Shown here piece after piece: positions 13,683-28,590 of a stretch of 32,545 nt of DNA (position 1 is its first letter; each line of letters opens with the position of its first letter). This DNA comes from Candidatus Aegiribacteria sp. (lineage in GTDB: Bacteria > Fermentibacterota > Fermentibacteria > Fermentibacterales > JCC-6): NCBI GenBank assembly GCA_021108435.1, contig JAIOQY010000053.1, forward strand, positions 1-32,545. The letters are read 5' to 3'. Under the pieces are notes generated by a model. The model saw nothing but the letters and a program-made list of their open reading frames with translations, was not told the DNA's origin and ran no database searches. Position numbers and translations under genes: made by a program.

Positions 13683-14357
13683 CTAGAAGAGTGTTTTGAT
13701 GTTAGCCCATGTGCCGGATTCTAGTGCCCCAGAACCATAGAAATCAAAGAATGCATCGGTATTTTCACCAAATGCAGCATCAGATCTTACCCATACACCG
13801 GAACCATCATTGTACCAGGTGTAACTGAGTATATACCAGTTACCAACAAGCATGAAGCAGTTGTCAACAACATCAGCCTGTGTTTCCATCCAGTAGTGTG
13901 TTCCGATTGTAAGGTCCGGATGTGTATCAGCTGGGTTAATGTCACAGGTGGTTTCGTAGATGTCAAAGCCCCAGTTTGTATCGCCTGTGAACTCGTTTGT
14001 GCAGGGGACTGGCTCGGACCATACATCGGTTGAAGTGTTAGGGTCGGAGTCGCCATTGTCTTCCGAGAAAACGATATTCATGGTCGAGCCCATGCCGCCG
14101 GTCCAGATCATCCAGACAACGATTGATTCCACATAAGCATCAAGGCCGGAAAGTACGAAATCATCGCAGATCCAGCGGTCTCCGGCACCGTAGTTGCTGT
14201 ATCCGTTGACAAGCTCGGCAAAAGTGTAGGTCTGTGAGTATATAAGACCGTCAATAGCGACCGGACCGTTGCGTTCAGCATGACGAGGACCGAGTTCGGC
14301 ATCGACCGCAAAAGCTGAAGTCGCTACAATGATAAGTACAAATACGAACAGTTTCAT
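13683..14357 (-). CDS. Secreted beta-rich protein, paralogue 1 of 4
   Basis: 224 residues with a clear signal peptide (MKLFVFVLIIVATSAFA) followed by VDAELGPRHAE. The mature protein is rich in aromatic and acidic residues with blocks shared by all four paralogues: IDGLIYSQTY, YSNYGAGDRW, DDFVLSG, VVWMIWTGG, MNIVFSEDNGDSDPNT, HYWMETQADVVDNCFMLVG and WYNDGSGVWVRSD, ending DIKTLF. The 'DDF-L … I-V-W' pattern resembles secreted beta-sandwich domains of FCB bacteria, but I cannot name a family. There is no C-terminal sorting domain. I start at the second Met (14357) because AAGGAAAGG lies 6 nt upstream. A promoter at 14399-14427 and the terminator at 13632-13655 make it a single-gene unit. Confidence 0.85.
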   Translation of the reverse strand: MKLFVFVLIIVATSAFAVDAELGPRHAERNGPVAIDGLIYSQTYTFAELVNGYSNYGAGDRWICDDFVLSGLDAYVESIVVWMIWTGGMGSTMNIVFSEDNGDSDPNTSTDVWSEPVPCTNEFTGDTNWGFDIYETTCDINPADTHPDLTIGTHYWMETQADVVDNCFMLVGNWYILSYTWYNDGSGVWVRSDAAFGENTDAFFDFYGSGALESGTWANIKTLF

Positions 14358-14398
14358 GATTAACCTTTCCTTCACCCCTTAACTCCCTACCTGAAACA

Positions 14399-14427
14399 AC
14401 AATACCGGGAAGGCTCTTTCCTGTCAA
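14399..14427 (-). promoter_or_regulatory. Promoter of secreted paralogue 1
   Basis: On the minus strand TTGACA (14427-14422) and TATTGT (14404-14399) are 17 bp apart, about 42 bp before the start codon. A short dyad (GGAA…TTCC) lies in the spacer. The same arrangement is found before paralogue 2. Confidence 0.55.
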
Positions 14428-14870
14428 CGATACTTTCCTGTGGGATACCGTACTTTCAGGAGGAAGAGCATCAACCCTGCGATGGGCTTCCCGTCCAGCA
14501 TGGCCAGAAAGAGCTGGAGCAGGTTCGGTCGAAGTTCGCGAATGTGCTCCAGATCTGAGATAGAGGAATACATGGCTTCGCAGATGGTGAACCCGTTGTA
14601 TAAGAGTGCAAACTACATAGATTCGTCAGGCAGCCTGCGGTAGACCGGCATGGGCTGAGCTATGAAGGCCTCCTTCAAACCATCCGCTCGGCACCAGGAG
14701 ACGAAGGAGGCGACCGAAGCGTCCGCTATTTCCAGTCCTGTATAAGGTGCAAGTATGAATCCGCCTGAACTTGCTCCAGCAGGACTTCTGTAAACACTGT
14801 CGATTATCGAGCCGGGGAGAACGGAGACAAGTCTCCCGTCACGGTAGAACATCAGGTGCCTGAAATCGAA
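14424..14870 (-). pseudogene. Broken GNAT/FemAB-like acyltransferase remnant
   Basis: On the minus strand one frame reads FRHLMFYRDGRLVSVLPG, …YRSPAGASSGGFILAPY, …CRADGLKEAFIAQPMPVYRRLPDESM, then an in-frame TAG at 14615-14613. It continues in the same frame with FALLYNGFTICEAMYSSIS, EHIRELRPNLLQLFLAMLDG and KPIAGLMLFL until a TGA at 14426-14424. This resembles GNAT/FemAB-type acyltransferases ('HL…dG.lvsvLPg…yrSpaGaSfGGf' and 'A.ldG.piAG'). It is much shorter than those proteins, lacks both ends and seems to have lost its middle. The terminal TGA lies inside the -35 box of the flanking paralogue promoter, so the fragment ends exactly at a duplication boundary. Family assignment is from motifs only. 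Confidence 0.6.
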
Positions 14871-14879
14871 TCAGCCGGG

Positions 14880-15554
14880 CTAGAAGAGTGTTTTGATGTC
14901 ACCCCAAGTGCTTGATTCAAGTGCCGTCCAATCCCACCAGAGGTCGAAGAATGCATCGGTATTTTCACCAAATGCAGCGTCAGATCTTACCCATACACCG
15001 GAACCATCGTTGTACCAGACGTAGCTGAGTACGCTCCAGGTTCCGACAAGCATGAAGCAGTTGTCTACAACATCAGCCTGGGTTTCAAGCCAGTAATGTC
15101 TGCCGACTTGAAAGTTTGGATATGGACCTCCATCGATTGCACAGGTGGTCTGGAAGACGTCGAAACCCCAGACTATCTCGCCAGTGGGGTAGTTTGTGCT
15201 GGGAACAGCCTCGGCCCATATTTCGATTGCGGTGTTAGGATCGAAGTCACCATTGTCTTTCGAGAAAACGATGTTCATGGTTGTGCCCTGAGCACCGGTC
15301 CAGATCATCCATACAATGATGGCATCCACCATGGTATCGGGACCTGCAAGTACGAAATCATCGCAGACCCATCGGTCGCCGGCACCGTAGTTACTGTAGG
15401 CGTTCATAAGATTGGCTAAGTCGAAGGTCTGTGAGTAAACAAGGCCGTCAATACTGACCATGCCGGTGCCCTCGGCGTGACGAGGCCCGAGTTCGTCATC
15501 GACCGCAAAAGCAGAAGCTGCCGCAATGATAAGCGTAAACGCGAACAGTTTCAT
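14880..15554 (-). CDS. Secreted beta-rich protein, paralogue 2 of 4
   Basis: 224 residues, signal peptide MKLFAFTLIIAAASAFA. It has the shared blocks (GPRHAEGTG, YSNYGAGDRWVCDDF, MIWTGAQGTTMNIVFSKD, HYWLETQADVVDNCFMLVG). It differs most from copy 1 in the segment around EAVPSTNYPTGEIVWGFDVFQTTCAIDGG and near the end (DLWWDWTALESSTWGDIKTLF). The ATG at 15554 has GAAGGGAAGG upstream. Its 3' end abuts the acyltransferase remnant and it lacks the hairpin terminator that follows copies 1 and 4, so read-through into the remnant is possible. Two conserved Cys may form a disulfide after export. Function unknown. Confidence 0.85.
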   Translation of the reverse strand: MKLFAFTLIIAAASAFAVDDELGPRHAEGTGMVSIDGLVYSQTFDLANLMNAYSNYGAGDRWVCDDFVLAGPDTMVDAIIVWMIWTGAQGTTMNIVFSKDNGDFDPNTAIEIWAEAVPSTNYPTGEIVWGFDVFQTTCAIDGGPYPNFQVGRHYWLETQADVVDNCFMLVGTWSVLSYVWYNDGSGVWVRSDAAFGENTDAFFDLWWDWTALESSTWGDIKTLF

Positions 15555-15595
15555 GATTAACCTTCCCTTCACCCCTTAACTCCCTACCTGAAACA

Positions 15596-15625
15596 ACAAT
15601 ACCGGGGATGGCCCCGTTCTGTCAA
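15596..15625 (-). promoter_or_regulatory. Promoter of secreted paralogue 2
   Basis: TTGACA (15625-15620) and TATTGT (15601-15596) are separated by 18 bp on the minus strand. The spacer contains the dyad CGGGG-CCAT-CCCCG, different in sequence from the dyad in the copy 1 spacer. The leader to the ATG is nearly identical to that of copy 1. Confidence 0.5.
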
Positions 15626-15714
15626 ACCCCCGGTGAATGCTGAAACTCGTTTCTCATTTTACTGCACATCTGTCTTTCAAACCAGGCATAGCGACAGTGA
15701 TAACAGATACACCA

Positions 15715-15743
15715 TTGACCCCTGAGGAATATACATGTAAATT
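15715..15743 (+). promoter_or_regulatory. Possible promoter of the propeller-like gene
   Basis: TTGACC (15715-15720), 17 bp, TAAATT (15738-15743), with the ATG 23 bp further and a GGAAGGAA ribosome site between. The -10 match is only 4/6. Confidence 0.35.
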
Positions 15744-15766
15744 CCGAGTGGAAAGGAAGGAAATAT

Positions 15767-16789
15767 ATGAGAATTGTGTTACTGCTTGTTCTGCCGGTGA
15801 TGGTTGCAGTCTGTCTGTCGGATCCAGTTCTGGACCGTACCATTACCGCTCCTGACGGCGATATTACCGGTCTTGGCTACGGAGAAGGATATCTCTGGGC
15901 AGTCGACAGGACCTCCGAGACTATCTACAAGCTGGACCCACTTACCGGTTCTGTTGAGAATTCCTGGGTCTGCACACAGACAGGTTCAAGGATTCCCACA
16001 GGTCTTGCCTACGTGAATAATTACGTATATGTCTGTGCCGGTACTGCGACCGGAACTGATACGTACGGCTACAGGTACTCTTCAAGTGGAGCATATGTCA
16101 GCAACTTTGACATGGACTGTTGAGGCAGTGATCTGGACCAAAAGGTTTTTGGTCTTGCTTCCGGTTCGAATGTTCTGTACGGTGCAGGGATCGATACCCA
16201 GACAATGAAAGAGACCGTTGAGAGATACAGTGTTTCAGGCACACTTCTTTCAGGACCCTATCTATTCCAGCCTATCGGTCTTCCTGTGTTCCACGATATC
16301 GGCTATCTGGATGGAGACATCTGGTACGCCTGTGATAATTCCGATTCTCCAATAAAGGCTTTCAGCACATCAGGAGCGCTTACGGATTATATCTGGAACA
16401 ATGTTGTTCCCGCTGCCCACGGACTCTGCTTCGAAGACGAGCAGTACCTCTGGGCCAGCAATTTCTATACCGATGAGCTGTACAGGATAAATCTGAATCC
16501 TACCGGGATCGAGGGAGAAGACATACAGCCTGCTCCTGTTCTTTCACTGGTCTCCAGTGTCAATCCGTTCAGCGCTACTGTGACCATACAGGGAACCGGC
16601 TTCTCCGATGCTGCTGTCCTTGAGATATTCGACATAATGGGCAGAAAAGTGTATACAGCCTCATTCAACGGTGCCCACACATGGGCCGGTATCGATATGA
16701 GCGGTAATCAGGTGCCTTCAGGAACCTACACCGCTTTTGTCAGCGACGGGCTTTCGGGAGGAGTATCCCTCAGAATGCTTCGCCTGTAG
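15767..16789 (+). CDS. Secreted propeller-like protein with C-terminal sorting-type domain, interrupted by an in-frame TGA
   Basis: One 340-sense-codon frame with a single TGA at 16121-16123. Part 1 (15767-16120) has a signal peptide (MRIVLLLVLPVMVAVCLS) and propeller-like repeats (ITGLGYGEGYLWAVDRTSETIYKLDPLTG, PTGLAYVNNYVYVCAG), ending SNFDMDC. After the TGA the same frame continues without a break as GSDLDQKVFGLASGSNVLY, with further repeats (IGYLDGDIWYACDNSD, HGLCFEDEQYLWASNFYTDELYRI). A FlgD/type IX-like C-terminal domain follows (SSVNPFSATVTI … FDIMGRKVYTA … VPSGTYTAFV). A separate start at 16205 has no ribosome site. Either a recent nonsense mutation broke the gene or the TGA is read through; see the hairpin at 16136-16154. 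TGA is an ordinary stop elsewhere in the window. Confidence 0.75.
16121..16154 (+). other. In-frame TGA followed by SECIS-like stem-loop
   Basis: After TGA (16121-16123), GACCAAAA (16136-16143) and TTTTGGTC (16147-16154) form a perfect 8-bp stem with a GGU loop (16144-16146). There are 20 nt between the TGA and the loop. Bacterial SECIS elements are described as having a loop 16-37 nt after UGA with a G in its first two positions; both hold here. The reading around it would be Cys-Sec-Gly. No Sec machinery gene is in the window. Confidence 0.35.
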
Positions 16790-16822
16790 GATTTCATCCT
16801 GCTGCCATGATCTTTAAAATAT

Positions 16823-16850
16823 GCCCCGGTCGTCAAAGACCGGGGCTTTA
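16823..16850. terminator. Bidirectional terminator between propeller gene and paralogue 3
   Basis: GCCCCGGTC / GACCGGGGC, a perfect 9-bp stem with GTCAAA loop, followed on plus by TTTAT. It lies between the convergent genes ending at 16789 and 16862. The other flank is also AT-rich. Confidence 0.8.
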
Positions 16851-16861
16851 TACTGTATTGT

Positions 16862-17533
16862 CTAGAAGTGCGTCTTGATGTCAGCCCAGGTGCTGGATTC
16901 CAGTGATAATAGATACCCGTAGAAATTGAAGAACGCATCGCTTTCCTCACCGAATATTACATCAGATCTTTGCCATACACCTGAACCGTCATCGTACCAG
17001 ACGTAATCGAGTATATACCAACTACCGACAAGCATGAAGCAGTTGTCTACAACATCAGCCTGGGTTTCAAACCAGTAATGTGTGTTTGCTGCAAGTTCCG
17101 GATATGTACCTGGATTAATTATACACTTGGTCTCGTAGATGTTAAAGCCCCAGGCGGTATCGCCTGTGAAGTAGTTTTCGCAGGGAACTGCTTCGGCCCA
17201 TATTTCGATTGCGGTGTTGGGATCGGAGTCGCCAACGTCTTCCGAGAAAACGAGGTTCATGGTTGAAGCCATACTGCCTGTCCAGATCTGCATTACAATG
17301 ATTGTATCCAAATAGGCGGGGTCGGTAAGCTCGAAATCATCGCAGACCCACCGGTCAGCTGCACCGTAGTTACTGTAGCCGTTGAGAAGGTTGCCAAAGC
17401 TATAGCCCTGTGAGTAAATAAGGCCGTCAATACTGACTGGTCCGCTACCGTCAACATGACGAGGCCCGAGTTCGGCATCGACCGCAAAGGCAGAAGCTGC
17501 TACAATCACAAGTGTAAATACGAATAGTTTCAT
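16862..17533 (-). CDS. Secreted beta-rich protein, paralogue 3 of 4
   Basis: 223 residues with signal peptide MKLFVFTLVIVAASAFA and the family blocks (GPRHVDGSG, YSNYGAADRWVCDDFELT, WTGSMASTMNLVFSEDVGD, HYWFETQADVVDNCFMLVG, YDDGSGVWQRSD). It is the most divergent of the four, e.g. IVMQIWTG for VVWMIWTG and VIFGEESDAFFNFYG. It ends DIKTHF instead of DIKTLF. The ATG at 17533 has GAAAGGAAAG upstream; the frame upstream of it is leader. It lies 97 bp after paralogue 4 in the same direction, with paralogue 4's hairpin between them, so partial read-through is possible. No own promoter was identified. Confidence 0.85.
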   Translation of the reverse strand: MKLFVFTLVIVAASAFAVDAELGPRHVDGSGPVSIDGLIYSQGYSFGNLLNGYSNYGAADRWVCDDFELTDPAYLDTIIVMQIWTGSMASTMNLVFSEDVGDSDPNTAIEIWAEAVPCENYFTGDTAWGFNIYETKCIINPGTYPELAANTHYWFETQADVVDNCFMLVGSWYILDYVWYDDGSGVWQRSDVIFGEESDAFFNFYGYLLSLESSTWADIKTHF

Positions 17534-17579
17534 GATTATCTTTCCTTTCATTTTAATGAAAAGAACTGAAATGTACAAA

Positions 17580-17603
17580 GGGGAAGAGCAGAAGCTCTTC
17601 CCC
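17580..17603 (-). terminator. Hairpin terminator after paralogue 4
   Basis: GGGGAAGAGC / GCTCTTCCCC, perfect 10-bp stem with AGAA loop, then TTTGT on the minus strand. Compared with 13632-13655, one stem pair changed from G-C to A-T on both sides, so the stem is kept by a compensating change. The flanking AAAGATCAGCAAATC is also shared. Confidence 0.75.
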
Positions 17604-17630
17604 AAAGATCAGCAAATCAAATCGGCTGGA

Positions 17631-18305
17631 CTAGAAAAGTGTCTTGATGTCAGCCCATGTACCGGCTTCGAGTGCTACATAACCGTAGAAATCCATGAAG
17701 GTATCAGTTATCTCACTGAATGCATCGTCACATCTTACCCATACACCGGAACCATCGTTGTACCAGACATAACTGAGTACACCCCATGTGCCGACAAGCT
17801 GGAAGCAGTTGTCTACGACATCAGCCTGGGTTTCCATCCAGTAATGTGTGCCGATTGTAAGTAATGGATGTGTATCAGCTGCATTAATGTCACAGGTTGT
17901 CTCGTAGATGTCAAAGCCCCAGCTTTGATCGCCTGTGAAGTAGTTTGTGCAGGGAACAGCCTCTGACCATACATCGGTTGCGGTGTTGGGATCAGAATCG
18001 CCATTGTCTTCCGAGAAAACGATGTTCATGGTTGAGCCCTGACCACCGGTCCAGATCATCCAAACTACGACTGAATCTACATATACCTCTGGGCCGGCAA
18101 GTTCGAAATCATCGGCGATCCAGCGGTCGCCGGCACCGTAGTTGCTGTATCCGTTCATAAGATTGGCAAAGTCGTAGGTCTGTGAGTACATAAGACCGTC
18201 AATACTGACCATGCCGGTGCCCTCAGCGTGACGTGAGCCAAGTTCAGCATCGGCTGCAAAGGAAGAAGCTGCTACGATGACAAGTGCAAATACGAACAGT
18301 TTCAT
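17631..18305 (-). CDS. Secreted beta-rich protein, paralogue 4 of 4
   Basis: 224 residues with signal peptide MKLFVFALVIVAASSFA. Blocks are closest to paralogue 1: GGQGSTMNIVFSEDNGDSDPNTATDVWSEAVPCTN, WGFDIYETTCDINAADTHP and HYWMETQADVVDNC. It shares GPRHAEGTGMVSIDGL-type sequence with paralogue 2 (here GSRHAEGTGM), so the copies look like mosaics, possibly from gene conversion. The ATG at 18305 has AAAGGAAAGG. It has its own promoter (18344-18372) and a terminator hairpin (17580-17603). The role is unknown; export to the periplasm or beyond is the only safe prediction. Confidence 0.85.
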   Translation of the reverse strand: MKLFVFALVIVAASSFAADAELGSRHAEGTGMVSIDGLMYSQTYDFANLMNGYSNYGAGDRWIADDFELAGPEVYVDSVVVWMIWTGGQGSTMNIVFSEDNGDSDPNTATDVWSEAVPCTNYFTGDQSWGFDIYETTCDINAADTHPLLTIGTHYWMETQADVVDNCFQLVGTWGVLSYVWYNDGSGVWVRCDDAFSEITDTFMDFYGYVALEAGTWADIKTLF

Positions 18306-18343
18306 GGTTACCTTTCCTTTCATAAAGGGTTAAACTTACATGA

Positions 18344-27377: not shown

Positions 27378-28496
27378 CTATGACCCGTCTGCAGGCATAT
27401 CGATATCCAGTGTATAAACTCGTTCGAATCGACTGGAATTACTGATAGCTGCAATGATACCAATCTGATCAACACTGAAAAACAGACCGGGATCCTTCTC
27501 ATTTCGATAAAGACGGGCTGTATATATCATGTCTCCTGAACGATTCCAGATATCGAACAGGTAGTCAATATCCGAATCGTGCCTTACAACCCACAAATTA
27601 CCTTCAGCATCTGTTCCTGCAAGCGATATGAGCTGGTAGAAAGGAGACGGTTCATAACCTCCGGTATAAGCCTGATCTTGTACTGCCCATTCCTCAAAAT
27701 CGTCGATCTCCGCCTGGATCTCCTCCGGAGATTTTGGCATTCTGTTTACATCATCTCGCTCAATCTGCAGCAGTTCCGTTCCGTTCGGAGTGTATACAGA
27801 GATGTGGTATTCTGTGTTATCAACCGCAATGAAGACATTACCTTCACAATCAGCAGTAAAATCAATAAGGTTGATCTCGGTGTACATCTCAGGAGCTGGC
27901 CAAATCCATTCGCGCGAATTGAATACAACTGAAGGTATTGAGGATGCGTCGAATCTTCCTATGATTGAACTGAAAATTATTTCCTCGTCACTCATTTCCA
28001 ATTTCATCATCAAACCTGCAATCGAAGATGAATCAAGCGGATACATGCTGAGTGGTACATACCTATCAGTTGTGAAGTAACTTCCAAGATAGTTACCGGC
28101 AATATCGAAGGACATCACTTCCTGCTTCATTTCGTCTGAAACAAGTATCCTGCCGTCATGCAGGGCACATATTGCCTGTGGGAGAAGCAATTCTCCAGGA
28201 CCATCTCCCCGTCGGCTTATCAGGTAAGAATCACCTTCAGTCGTGATGACTCGAATTCTAAGGGATGAGCGATCCAGCAGCAGAATAGAACCATCAGGAT
28301 GATTGCAGAGGCCATTGATGCTGCCAATCATATTCAGGGAATCTCCAAGCTCCACGCCGAATGAATCATCTATCGATATTTCGTATTCAGGTATAGTGAT
28401 CGAATTGGATATTGCAGGTTCTTGATCATCCGATTCGCATGAACCTGATAAAGATATCATGATTACCAGGATAGCTATAGAAAGGGCGGATTTCAT
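27378..28496 (-). CDS. 6-bladed beta-propeller lipoprotein
   Basis: 372 residues. Signal peptide MKSALSIAILVIMISLSGSC has a plausible, slightly atypical lipobox (SGS|C), so it is probably lipid-anchored. The mature domain is like the Bacteroidetes 6-bladed-propeller family, with blades IGSINGLCNHPDGSILLLDRSSLRIRVI, ALHDGRILVSDEMKQEVMSFDIAGNYLGSYF, DFTADCEGNVFIAVDNTEYHISVYTPNG and TDAEGNLWVVRHDSDIDYLFDIWNRSG. I use the ATG at 28496 (AGGAAGG 6 nt upstream). The longer frame to 28559 is made of the attC-like repeat at 28523-28590. Ligand unknown. The ~115 bp after its stop contain an imperfect hairpin (27294-27325 area) but no clear recombination-site boxes. Confidence 0.78.
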   Translation of the reverse strand: MKSALSIAILVIMISLSGSCESDDQEPAISNSITIPEYEISIDDSFGVELGDSLNMIGSINGLCNHPDGSILLLDRSSLRIRVITTEGDSYLISRRGDGPGELLLPQAICALHDGRILVSDEMKQEVMSFDIAGNYLGSYFTTDRYVPLSMYPLDSSSIAGLMMKLEMSDEEIIFSSIIGRFDASSIPSVVFNSREWIWPAPEMYTEINLIDFTADCEGNVFIAVDNTEYHISVYTPNGTELLQIERDDVNRMPKSPEEIQAEIDDFEEWAVQDQAYTGGYEPSPFYQLISLAGTDAEGNLWVVRHDSDIDYLFDIWNRSGDMIYTARLYRNEKDPGLFFSVDQIGIIAAISNSSRFERVYTLDIDMPADGS

Positions 28497-28522
28497 CATA
28501 TACCTTCCTACTTGATAATGCT

Positions 28523-28590
28523 TTAAATCAGCAGACTGCGAAACATTCGCATCGATCATATAACCGCAGTTCCGCTGAATTTTGTTATGT
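28523..28590 (-). other. attC-like site D (after the S9 peptidase gene)
   Basis: Imperfect inverted repeat. On plus, the left arm (TAAATCAGCAGACTGCG) pairs with GCAGTTCCGCTGAATTTTG of the right arm: CAGC-(A/G)-GA-CTGCG with one bulged A. On minus, the entry box is ACATAAC, one mismatch from RYYYAAC; the exit box (GATTTAA) is degenerate. The left arm shares an exact 20-mer with site C. Confidence 0.55.

Follow-up and report, generated by a model that had tools for sequence, protein, structure and literature searches.

The question raised by this locus is whether a TGA codon lying inside the gene for a putatively secreted protein is a stop, or a signal for the insertion of selenocysteine (Sec). 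The window, by which we mean the whole stretch of DNA analysed, comprises 32,545 nucleotides of a 2.9 Mb Candidatus Aegiribacteria-related MAG (Fermentibacterota; 95.6% complete); within it a single open frame runs from an ATG at 15767 to a TAG at 16787-16789, and is split by an in-frame TGA at 16121-16123 into 118 codons before and 221 sense codons after. A first-pass annotation of the sequence had recorded the TGA, the 118 open codons ahead of it, a Cys-Sec-Gly context and a perfect 8-bp stem with a GGU loop 20 nt downstream, all of which we confirm, while its count of 222 sense codons after the TGA is one too high. Its suggestion of a selenoprotein is upheld by the machinery of the host genome, by conservation of the TGA and by covariation in the hairpin, and its preference for a nonsense mutation as the simplest reading is not: we conclude, on comparative sequence evidence, that the UGA at 16121-16123 is very probably read as selenocysteine.

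The whole gene (15767-16789, forward strand) would encode 340 residues with Sec at position 119, in one frame across the TGA, and has full-length homology to TGA-containing genes across the order. An SD-like GGAAGGAAAT stands ahead of the ATG, where the purine-rich, Shine-Dalgarno-like stretch at 15750-15766 reads GGAAAGGAAGGAAATAT. The first 20 residues (15767-15826) form a predicted signal peptide, with a hydrophobic N-terminus and, in the structural model, a helix at residues 2-15 that lies outside the propeller, suggesting secretion. Residues 21-247 (15827-16507) are modelled by AlphaFold2 (pLDDT 94.8, pTM 0.92) as a five-bladed beta-propeller of twenty strands, closed by the N-terminal strand, an assignment shared by the best fold matches in the PDB. 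The remainder (16559-16789) resembles the C-terminal sorting domains of type IX secretion (T9SS), of the CHU_C, FlgD_ig or Por_Secre_tail kind, with a Pfam match to PF13585 of 29.3 bits (cut-off 27) and an NCBIfam score for TIGR04183 of 18.1, below the cut-off of 23. As the host genome also encodes SprA, the T9SS translocon (432 bits against a cut-off of 200), the protein may plausibly leave the cell by a T9SS-like route. In several shorter family members the alignment is confined to the propeller.

The first-pass annotation had tied the selenocysteine reading to the presence of Sec machinery in the genome, and all of it is there: SelA (437 bits) with SelB adjoining it (340 bits), a tRNA-Sec with anticodon UCA (73 bits), and SelD (311 bits), whose own gene has an in-frame TGA at the classical site (PCAGUAGK). 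Across the order, SelA was matched in 29 of 33 genomes, the host included; the four genomes lacking a match are all just 61-77% complete, and three of them (G004, G014 and G041) have TGA-containing members of the propeller family. Nearly all SelD genes in the order likewise contain an in-frame TGA. SelD genes without one occur in G039 and in the distant G042 (L240 and L238); a copy containing the TGA is also present in G039, so that both types coexist in some genomes.

Among 60 relatives searched, homologues of the window gene came from all parts of the order, and almost every one has a single in-frame TGA. In 120 of the homologues retrieved, drawn from many independent MAGs and reaching down to approximately 30% identity, the TGA occupies a single alignment column. 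The Cys118-Sec119-Gly120 motif of the window gene (TGT TGA GGC, 16118-16126) is echoed in every one of them, in that Cys stands either one residue before Sec (70 members, e.g. DCUGS) or three residues before it (50 members, mostly CGGUGN), and Gly follows Sec directly in 114. Named carriers are Candidatus Aegiribacteria, Sabulitectum, Fermentibacter and other Fermentibacterota, with several paralogues per genome, including three in the host genome and seven in G012. A scan of the GTDB collection, seeded by short peptide patterns and so of limited reach for distant relatives, gave 65 loci, every one from Fermentibacterota; searches of viral contigs and phages for relatives returned none. Judged from these sequences, the family is large, surface-directed and apparently undescribed, and has so far been found only in one uncultivated bacterial phylum. 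One member (L017; G001:C7:43751-44761) contains a further in-frame TGA, 60 codons downstream of the one for Sec, at a site occupied by sense codons in the other members retrieved; it is likely a decayed copy or an error.

The hairpin in the window gene (16136-16154) is formed by the arms GACCAAAA (16136-16143) and TTTTGGTC (16147-16154) around the loop GGT (16144-16146), with a ninth, G-U pair at 16135/16155. Bacterial SECIS (bSECIS) elements are described as having a loop of 3-9 nt, a stem of 4-16 bp, a G in the first two loop positions and a distance of 16-37 nt from the UGA (PMC13188914), and the 8-bp stem, GGU loop and +20 position agree with this geometry. A GGY triloop on a stem of at least 8 bp at an allowed distance accompanies only two of the 1531 TGA trinucleotides on both strands of the window, and, among its 13 in-frame stops flanked on either side by long open frames, the TGA at 16121-16123 alone has a GGY hairpin. 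Under synonymous recoding, the complete pairing of the window gene (8/8) has a probability of approximately 0.02; as this is just moderately unlikely, the case must rest on comparison with homologues.

That comparison reveals a GGY triplet 17 or 20 nt after the TGA in 119 of the 120 members, nearly always between complementary arms. Mean pairing among 118 distinct homologous sequences is 7.5 of 8, against 4.3 expected from synonymous recoding. Over 57 distinct sequences, 92.8% of cells are paired, compared with 65.2% in shuffles, and 107 cells have changed on both sides, compared with 33.8; the covariation score is 0.664 against 0.188 when shuffled and at most 0.175 with the arms slid, and none of 500 shuffles scored as high. 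Among the paired arms are TCTCGTC/GACGGGA, CTCTGGTC/GACCGGAG, TACCAGTC/GACTGGTG, TACTACCC/GGGTGGTG and GTCCCTTG/CAAGGGAC. In a subgroup with DREVTGL and similar sequences, the two loop-adjacent pairs are broken, giving a larger loop in which GGT is still central, and the window gene has Phe where its relatives have Ser or Thr, by a codon that keeps the stem paired. Further, the hairpin goes with the TGA, because in 14 TGA-less homologues the equivalent place averages 4.4 of 8 paired and the GGY loop is absent. In the same genomes, SelD genes show this GGY triloop as well, approximately 22 nt beyond their TGA, suggestive of a single recognition rule for SelB in both. A covariance model of the hairpin, which is family-specific and misses SelD's own element, returned only the three family members as significant in the host genome (E 7e-7 for the window hairpin); matches at E 4.5 and 9.9 were rejected as further SECIS elements, since neither lies in a convincing frame.

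A frame that continues past a TGA and is followed by a hairpin might also reflect read-through of the stop, which the first-pass annotation had listed as a further possibility; in a programmed form, a near-cognate tRNA would sometimes misread the UGA to give an extended product, and the hairpin would be a stimulator rather than a SECIS. We consider this very unlikely: the codon at the Sec column is always UGA and never UAG or UAA, Cys invariably stands one or three residues before it, the hairpin has bSECIS geometry (PMC13188914) and shares its triloop with SelD in a genome with full Sec machinery, and the shortened product of termination would have only two of the five blades. Still less credible is the view that an ordinary gene for a secreted propeller has recently acquired a nonsense mutation, or was affected by a sequencing error; an isolated in-frame stop in one gene of a MAG can have such an origin, but the same TGA recurs in 120 homologues from many independent assemblies and the hairpin covaries. 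Among the five closest genes, moreover, dN/dS is 0.04-0.22 upstream and 0.13-0.25 downstream of the TGA, and purifying selection after the codon argues that the downstream part is translated and selected. Genome-wide reassignment of UGA to Trp or Gly, which would give an open frame, can be dismissed almost entirely, as TGA ends 8 of the 29 genes in the window, indicating a code that is not reassigned, and nearly all members have just one TGA within the domain, at one column.

Cys-containing homologues are a usual, though not obligatory, corroboration of a Sec site, and single-sequence and profile searches of the relatives yielded none. The 25 TGA-less homologues lack the Sec loop, their own being shorter, and none has Cys at the Sec column. 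The first-pass annotation had expected Cys homologues to support Sec, and Ser or Gly to support mutation; neither Cys, nor Ser or Gly within any otherwise intact loop, turned up at the Sec column. Nor did we encounter the close homologues with a sense codon and no hairpin that it held would count against Sec, as all 120 loop-bearing members have TGA and 119 retain the GGY register. On a quick tree built without the Sec loop, and with some long branches, the Sec state changes twice. According to a 2026 review, Cys homologues are abundant for almost every selenoenzyme (PMC13188914), so that a family with none is unusual, within the reach of our searches. Many selenoprotein searches rely on Sec/Cys pairs and would overlook families without Cys versions, and such families may be under-counted as a result.

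In the mechanism that we propose, SelB, tRNA-Sec and the downstream GGY-triloop hairpin, as a bacterial SECIS, would decode the UGA at 16121-16123 as Sec, and the product, with its predicted five-bladed propeller and T9SS-type C-terminal domain, would be exported. Cys118-Sec119 is predicted, from the strand order of the structural model, to fall in the loop that connects blades 2 and 3, and further blade-connecting loops (APD, GLAY, YDIAY and PAARG) are conserved. In propellers in general, loops of this kind occupy one face close to the central channel, a common location for binding sites. The Cys-Sec or Cys-x-x-Sec pair may form a reversible selenenylsulfide, or a soft-metal site. If the former, then the protein would have a redox function at the surface of these anaerobic cells; resemblance to known motifs suggests such a role outside the cytoplasm, on which we place about an even chance. 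The main alternative, binding of soft metals or metalloids, seems unlikely; known vicinal-CU families include organometal-handling proteins (PMC13188914 Table 1). A function other than redox or metal and metalloid binding is somewhat less improbable, if still doubtful. More broadly, the proposal of a phylum-specific, multi-copy, surface-exported five-bladed propeller family, which depends on Sec without a Cys version, whose embedded SECIS constrains the protein sequence, and whose extracellular redox reaction is important to Fermentibacterota, stands in our judgement evenly poised.

The surroundings of the gene offer several observations. Four paralogues of a secreted protein of approximately 230 residues flank it on the minus strand (13683-18323), and the paralogue scanned has no Pfam match. 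In four close orthologous loci (L147-L150), the gene following the Sec gene is homologous to window gene 27378-28559, which lies 10 kb from the Sec gene in the window and whose homologues, in the members scanned, have weak matches to the DUF5128 six-bladed propeller. Beside another orthologue is a gene for a gingipain-like C25 peptidase with a FlgD_ig tail (L151:4160-6637).

Most characterised selenoproteins have thioredoxin-like folds. The present family places Sec on a beta-propeller, in proteins that look surface-bound via a T9SS-like route, and may help to explain why an uncultivated phylum keeps the costly Sec trait. Its genes are presumably annotated in databases as truncated pairs. The proposed decoding follows the established bacterial route for Sec; what is apparently new is the protein family. 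Neither a propeller nor this family is among the 119 families of a 2026 catalogue (PMC13188914 Table 1), three members tested had no match to the curated selenoprotein models of NCBIfam 20.0, and a search of the open-licence literature found no paper on selenium or selenoproteins in Fermentibacter, Fermentibacterota, Fermentibacteria or Aegiribacteria. The set of covarying hairpins, in turn, defines a GGY-triloop SECIS that is testable directly against the SelB of this phylum.

Set beside known systems, the closest solved fold is that of the five-bladed plant and bacterial glutaminyl cyclases (2iwa, 3mbr and 3nol; TM 0.74-0.77, approximately 15% identity), from which the window protein differs in having no match to the cyclase family in a Pfam scan, and in its Sec, as none is known in cyclases. 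With T9SS cargo bearing CHU_C or Por_Secre_tail domains it shares a sorting-type C-terminal domain and a genome encoding SprA, whereas a propeller selenoprotein with such a tail is absent from the 119-family catalogue (PMC13188914). The position of Cys one or three residues before Sec recalls the vicinal CU or CxxU selenoproteins SaoL, HgcA, MbdU and KCU-star, and GrdA and SELENOW-like proteins (PMC13188914 Table 1); these, however, are unrelated families, and here both spacings occur within one propeller family. Finally, the family resembles other bacterial bSECIS selenoproteins (PMC13188914) in the probable decoding of UGA by SelB and tRNA-Sec, in the presence of SelA and SelD alongside them, and in a loop 17-20 nt after the UGA with G in its first two positions. 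It differs from them as a new protein family for which no Cys homologue was found, and in the form of its element, a GGY triloop on a mostly uninterrupted stem of 7-10 bp.
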